Source: Gammaproteobacteria bacterium (GTDB taxonomy: Bacteria; Pseudomonadota; Gammaproteobacteria; JAJPIJ01). From it: a DNA stretch of 38,886 nucleotides. Of the stretch, positions 30,579 through 31,585 are shown piece after piece. The number at the start of each line of letters is the position of its first letter. The first letter of the stretch is position 1. Below the pieces are notes generated by a model that saw only the letters and a list, made by a program, of their open reading frames with translations, was not told the DNA's origin and did no database searches. A program made the translations under genes and the position numbers. Location: assembly GCA_022072255.1 (NCBI GenBank), contig JAJVHZ010000067.1, forward strand, positions 1 to 38,886. Direction: 5' to 3'.

Positions 30579-30600
30579 CCCTGAGGACCATGGCGCGGTT

Positions 30601-30870
30601 CTAGCCGCCGGGTGGTGCGGGCGGTCGGCCAAGCGCCTGTTCGAGCGCAGCGACCTGCCTCTCCAGTTCCTCGAGCCGGGCGCGGGTGCGCGCGAGCACG
30701 GTGGTCTGTACATCGAACTCCTCGCGAGTGACCAGATCCATGCTGGCGAGCGCGCTGGTGAGCATGGCCCGCAGGTTCTTGCGCAGTTCGACGGCGGCAG
30801 GGCCGCTCATCCGCGGCAGCAGCCCCGCGATGCGCTCGATCAGGTTGTCCAGTCGGAGACTGTCGGTCAC
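30601..30870 (-). CDS. ubiK: UbiK accessory factor of ubiquinone biosynthesis
   Basis: An 89-residue protein of the UbiK/YqiC (BMFP) family. The first 50 residues form an amphipathic helix region (DSLRLDNLIERIAGLLP, then ELRKNLRAMLTSAL), and the last 40 form a coiled coil with the conserved LVTREEFDVQTTVLARTRARLEELE segment. UbiK trimerises and, with UbiJ, supports the aerobic ubiquinone-synthesis complex. I start it at GTG (30870), which gives the family's TDSLRLD beginning and has GAGG ten bases upstream. Beginning earlier would run through the glnK operator region. Its place between comM and the divergent glnK-amtB pair is the same in Pseudomonas and other gammaproteobacteria. Confidence 0.92.
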   Translation of the reverse strand: MTDSLRLDNLIERIAGLLPRMSGPAAVELRKNLRAMLTSALASMDLVTREEFDVQTTVLARTRARLEELERQVAALEQALGRPPAPPGG

Positions 30871-30944
30871 GGCATATGAGCCTCGATCACTCTGGCTGCA
30901 ACTCTCCGGCATGCCCGGTCTGCCGTCAATACCGGCGAGTGGGC

Positions 30945-30959
30945 GCCCCAGGATGGTGC
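30945..30959. promoter_or_regulatory. Putative NtrC operator 1
   Basis: GCCCC-AGGAT-GGTGC differs by one base from the NtrC half-site pattern GCACC-N5-GGTGC. Its centre is 30 bp from operator 2, about three helical turns, the arrangement used for cooperative NtrC binding upstream of sigma-54 promoters. Confidence 0.6.
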
Positions 30960-30974
30960 CCCGTGTATCAGTCA

Positions 30975-30989
30975 GCACCGTAGTGGTGC
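30975..30989. promoter_or_regulatory. Putative NtrC operator 2
   Basis: GCACC-GTAGT-GGTGC matches the NtrC pattern GCACC-N5-GGTGC exactly. It is centred 73 bp before the -24 GG element of the glnK promoter, or about 98 bp upstream of the expected transcription start, a normal enhancer position. Confidence 0.75.
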
Positions 30990-31053
30990 GTCGAGCCGGG
31001 GCCAGTTTGGACTCAATCATCGTAACCTGTTGGCGATTCATATTTTATCTGCC

Positions 31054-31069
31054 TGGCATGGCAGGTGCT
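31054..31069 (+). promoter_or_regulatory. Sigma-54 (RpoN) promoter of glnK-amtB
   Basis: TGGCATGGCAGGTGCT has the invariant GG (31055-31056) and GC (31067-31068) separated by ten bases, and TGGCA at -24 matches the consensus TGGCAC. With the two upstream NtrC sites this predicts nitrogen-limitation control of glnK-amtB, as established in enterobacteria and pseudomonads. Confidence 0.8.
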
Positions 31070-31141
31070 GATGGTGATGCGTGCACCCTTGGGACCCACA
31101 CGAGCCGATTCATGAAGTGGCGGGGTGACAAGCAGGAGTAG

Positions 31142-31585
<444 letters not shown>

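Follow-up and report, generated by a model that had tools for sequence, protein, structure and literature searches.

The window, a stretch of 38,886 nucleotides, carries glnK directly followed by amtB. In the interval 30600-31260 divergent ubiK lies leftmost; to its right come a pair of NtrC-type palindromes and then a -24/-12 element, after which glnK begins, with amtB lying beyond it (Table 1).

Table 1. Positions of the genes and control elements at the ubiK-glnK-amtB locus
Feature	Position	Strand	Remarks
ubiK (BMFP family), short form	30601-30870	-	GTG at 30870; divergent neighbour
Distal NtrC-type site GCCCCAGGATGGTGC	30945-30959	+	One mismatch to GCACC-N5-GGTGC; left arm weak
Proximal (promoter-proximal) NtrC-type site GCACCGTAGTGGTGC	30975-30989	+	Palindrome arms exact
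Sigma-54 -24/-12 element TGGCATGGCAGGTGC	31054-31068	+	GG-N10-GC
Predicted glnK leader, about 167 nt	31080-31246	+	From the predicted start near 31080
glnK, PII signal protein, 112 aa	31247-31585	+	NF007946, 185.9 bits (cut-off 181); PF00543
amtB, ammonium transporter, 480 aa	31621-33063	+	TIGR00836, 434 bits (cut-off 343.3); PF00909

Elements of the ubiK-glnK interval

The first-pass annotation of this DNA had claimed an exact GCACC-N5-GGTGC site, a second one with a single mismatch 30 bp away and a TGGCA...GG-N10-GC promoter in the right order and spacing, and all three were recovered at the positions it had given. The GG of the -24/-12 element occupies 31055-31056 and is followed by ten bases and by the GC at 31067-31068. 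Compared with the consensus TGGCACG-N4-TTGC quoted in PMC3224663, this element agrees at 9 of the 11 defined positions, and its -12 part reads GTGC, not TTGC. The 30 bp between the two palindromes correspond to about three helical turns, and the -24/-12 element begins 79 bp past the start of the proximal site. No match to a sigma-70-type promoter was obtained in 30600-31260 by a scan limited to the E. coli type of consensus, and no terminator was found in the gap between ubiK and glnK. The same annotation had described the module as complete; since the distal site is weak and carries two mismatches in the sister species, that description is owed chiefly to the proximal site.

IHF sites were scored with a consensus, and the window shows no good match between enhancer and promoter. 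Among 13 regions, an IHF-like match with at most one mismatch was present in three, a number reached by 34 of 300 shuffles, so that the result is overall not significant. In three loci of the window's own family (L003, L007 and L011) an IHF-like match with 0, 0 and 1 mismatch, respectively, is present on the minus strand, in each case at a distance of exactly 18 bp upstream of the -24 element, and the equivalent place in the window (about 31020-31036) holds no good match.

Regarding the genes downstream, amtB scores below the cut-off of the narrower AmtB model NF007947. The predicted glnK leader gave no Rfam match up to an E-value of 1, and its folding was no better than that of shuffled sequences (z-score +1.55); a riboswitch or small RNA in the leader was consequently dropped from consideration. 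Among the papers listed (ten of 33) by one literature search on TorF with glnK, amtB and porin, none named TorF.

Related genomes and the regulators of nitrogen control

DNA matches were obtained in 33 of the 56 genomes searched, and all of the 61 places concerned were examined. The sister species (G001), the only further member of the genus among the genomes searched, can be aligned with the window across the whole region. Its proximal site (GCCCCATTATGGTGC) has one mismatch and an unchanged place, its distal site (GCCCCGACACGGGGC) has two (GCCCC-N5-GGGGC), and its promoter (TGGCATGACAGCTGC) stands 78 bp from the proximal site as compared with 79 in the window. The module is thus partly conserved in the sister species: proximal site and promoter are retained, while two 20-bp tiles between them are only 45-55% identical between both species. 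A 20-base block at 30920-30939, between ubiK and the distal NtrC-type site, is identical in both species of the genus and may belong to the ubiK promoter or leader.

The comparison across related genomes proposed in the first-pass annotation revealed that the module recurs between ubiK and glnK in the majority of relatives with this gene order. In the stretch examined, a divergent ubiK lies upstream in 22 of the 61 loci, window included, and 19 of these 22 have an NtrC-like site 40-200 bp before a promoter, between ubiK and glnK. This site has at most one mismatch in 15 loci and two mismatches in 4; the remaining three (L012, L020 and L022) showed no module in the scanned gap between the two genes. 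When only the 16 divergent-ubiK loci with a gap shorter than 600 bp were considered, 9 with at most one mismatch and 4 with two were observed, compared with 0.015 and 0.085 per set of shuffled sequences; on the reverse strand none of the 16 had one. Some relatives have only one good NtrC-like site. Among the 39 loci with no ubiK in the stretch examined, a site-promoter pair within 450 bp was present in two (L010 and L069).

In six of the 22 loci (L004, L013, L017, L018, L019 and L025) the gap extends to about 1.0-1.3 kb and harbours, between module and glnK, a frame of 215-261 aa whose start resembles a signal peptide; the module thus stands before a unit of three genes. The frame of L017, the one of the six that was scanned, encodes a protein of the Gcw_chp family (PF09694, 137 bits); in the window's genome PF09694 has one match, on contig C16, away from glnK.

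The genome itself encodes the regulators that such a module calls for in the first-pass reading. The gene rpoN was found on contig C10 (PF04552, E-value 1.2e-70) and ntrC on contig C1 (734 bits, cut-off 558.6), where ntrB adjoins it (348.8 bits, cut-off 240) and glnA (656.3 bits, cut-off 429.15) ends about 2 kb before ntrC. The absence of rpoN or ntrC, named beforehand as evidence against the reading, is consequently excluded. Upstream of glnA stands a module similar to that of glnK, with an exact palindrome, a second one with two mismatches 31 bp further on and a -24/-12 element (TGGCACATTTTCTGC) 98 and 67 bp on from the two sites. Of the two sites, the one nearer the promoter is exact at glnK and the distal one at glnA, and the promoter has two mismatches at glnK as compared with one at glnA. 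In addition, the beginning of the ntrB frame has close to it an NtrC-type palindrome with one mismatch (contig C1, L049:3099-3113); the E. coli glnL promoter has a comparable palindrome, and the position of the site suggests autoregulation.

These data also bear on an alternative in which the promoter depends on sigma-54 and is served by an activator other than NtrC, or in which NtrC uses the proximal site only, the distal one being a relic. The weakness of the distal site, more pronounced in the sister species, and the single good site of some relatives are in line with it. Furthermore, 15 matches of at least 192 bits to the ntrC model were found in the genome, one of them above the cut-off; many other sigma-54 activators are thus encoded, one of which might in principle act here. 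On the other hand, the arms of the proximal site are exactly of the NtrC type, and the spacing of 30 bp agrees with the 30-32 bp seen at glnA and in several relatives. This alternative is considered unlikely.

Chance matches and the ubiK start

Single elements of the module are not rare. In the window, 8 NtrC-type sites with at most one mismatch were counted for 3.44 expected, and the 38 promoter-like matches with at most two mismatches are at chance level (42.7 expected); in the whole genome, 22 exact NtrC-type palindromes were present among the matches listed. Their combination, on the other hand, is rare. When the 450 bp before glnK (30797-31246) were submitted to 2000 dinucleotide shuffles, one site plus promoter arose twice and two sites plus promoter never. 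Across the 4,271,038 bases of the genome, the composite with an exact site, GCACCN5GGTGC-N60..90-TGGCAN7TGC, is present at two places, before glnA and here, compared with none for the reversed-pattern control, and no exact composite with a gap of 90-120 exists genome-wide. A half-site version (GGTGC plus promoter) was not enriched over the genome, with 7 matches as compared with 14 in the control. A looser scan of the window and loci, covering 618,422 strand-bases in which overlapping loci are counted more than once, gave 37 site-promoter pairs, at least 9 of them at places other than upstream of glnA or of a PII gene.

The sites could in principle be chance matches in G+C-rich DNA, the operon being driven by an unseen sigma-70-type promoter. 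This explanation draws on the chance-level frequency of promoter-like elements, on an excess of NtrC-type sites that is only about twofold and on the half-site count. It is opposed by the shuffles and the composite count, by the similar module at glnA, by the elements shared with the sister species and by the 19 of 22 divergent-ubiK loci, as well as by the negative sigma-70 scan, limited as it was to the E. coli consensus. Chance is a poor explanation of the combination, and we regard this alternative as very improbable.

The first-pass annotation had also favoured a short ubiK, and this was borne out independently by codon periodicity, present in the short form and missing from the extension. 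Against the sister species, the substitutions at first, second and third codon positions number 7, 7 and 26 in short ubiK (26 of 40 at the third position) and 3, 3 and 22 in glnK, taken as yardstick, whereas the extension 30871-31041 has 17, 16 and 15 (15 of 48 at the third position) together with a one-base gap. The family profiles start at residues 60-64 of the long frame: the UbiK profile aligns from its position 3 onwards, at residue 60, with a score of 74.6 bits that stays under the curated 100, and PF04380 scores 84.8 bits, over its cut-off of 37.2. The GTG at 30870 is the best reading of the ubiK start from these comparisons; with the ATG at 30912, likewise in frame, the NtrC sites would still fall outside the gene. 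A longer ubiK starting at the ATG at 31041 would have the sites within its coding part. This alternative has in its favour an open frame of 146 aa but is hardly credible given these substitution patterns and profile starts, and the long form was rejected.

Predicted control of glnK-amtB and known systems

Phosphorylated NtrC at paired palindromes reaches the sigma-54 polymerase through a DNA loop, and the promoter is opened. The enhancer with its two palindromes and the sigma-54 promoter of the window would, with little doubt, drive expression of glnK-amtB. Under nitrogen shortage, NtrB would phosphorylate NtrC, which would bind both sites as a higher-order oligomer and loop to the sigma-54 RNA polymerase at -24/-12; the NtrC ATPase would then open the promoter, leading to synthesis of GlnK and of the ammonium channel AmtB. 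Transcription of glnK presumably starts about 12 bases past the GC, near 31080. From homologous systems we infer NtrC binding, looping, a start near 31080 and induction of glnK-amtB under nitrogen limitation.

Two PII genes were found in the genome, each followed by an ammonium transporter gene. Both PII proteins pass NF007946 (PRK10665, the GlnK-type model), and both fall short of the curated cut-off of NF008111 (PRK10858, the GlnB-type model). Upstream regions of 450 bases were scanned for modules, except for the second PII gene (contig C43:367-698, L032; 366 bases) and for L075 (341 bases). No NtrC/sigma-54 module was present in the 366 bp before the second PII gene nor in the 450 bp before its sister-species counterpart (L053). 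A division of labour between the window's glnK-amtB, with its NtrC/sigma-54 module, and the C43 pair as a standing GlnB-like sensor, although its PII protein does not reach the GlnB-type cut-off, is a tentative proposal about which we are rather doubtful; with a genome 95.48% complete, a third PII gene could be missing.

Taken together, the presence of rpoN, ntrC, ntrB and glnA, the glnA module and the relatives support the earlier reading of a textbook enhancer-plus-RpoN layout. As judged from sequence, the module is real, correctly interpreted and ordinary, a further case of the NtrC/sigma-54 control of glnK-amtB known from E. coli and Pseudomonas, and its arrangement is common to many relatives. 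It places the operon firmly in the predicted nitrogen-limitation regulon of this organism, resolves where ubiK begins and distinguishes the genome's two PII-AmtB pairs from each other by how they are controlled, while leaving knowledge of NtrC or sigma-54 unchanged.

The operon, the activator (here read from the sequence) and the sigma factor are those of E. coli glnK-amtB; the divergent ubiK on the other side of the module is unlike E. coli, where the neighbourhood is a different one. In nitrogen-starved E. coli cells, an NtrC ChIP-seq peak lies at glnK-amtB according to PMC4066584. In Pseudomonas stutzeri A1501, PMC8443478 reports glnK expression at 0.14-fold in an ntrC mutant, an NtrC site in the glnK promoter, similar to the candidate site here, and cotranscription of amtB1-amtB2 with glnK; that strain has a single PII gene, whereas two are present here, each with its amtB. 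Finally, the sigma-54 promoter of Xylella fastidiosa glnA (TGGTATG-N4-TTGC), whose start was mapped by primer extension, matches 9 of 11 consensus bases (PMC3224663), exactly as many as the window element, although gene and organism differ.
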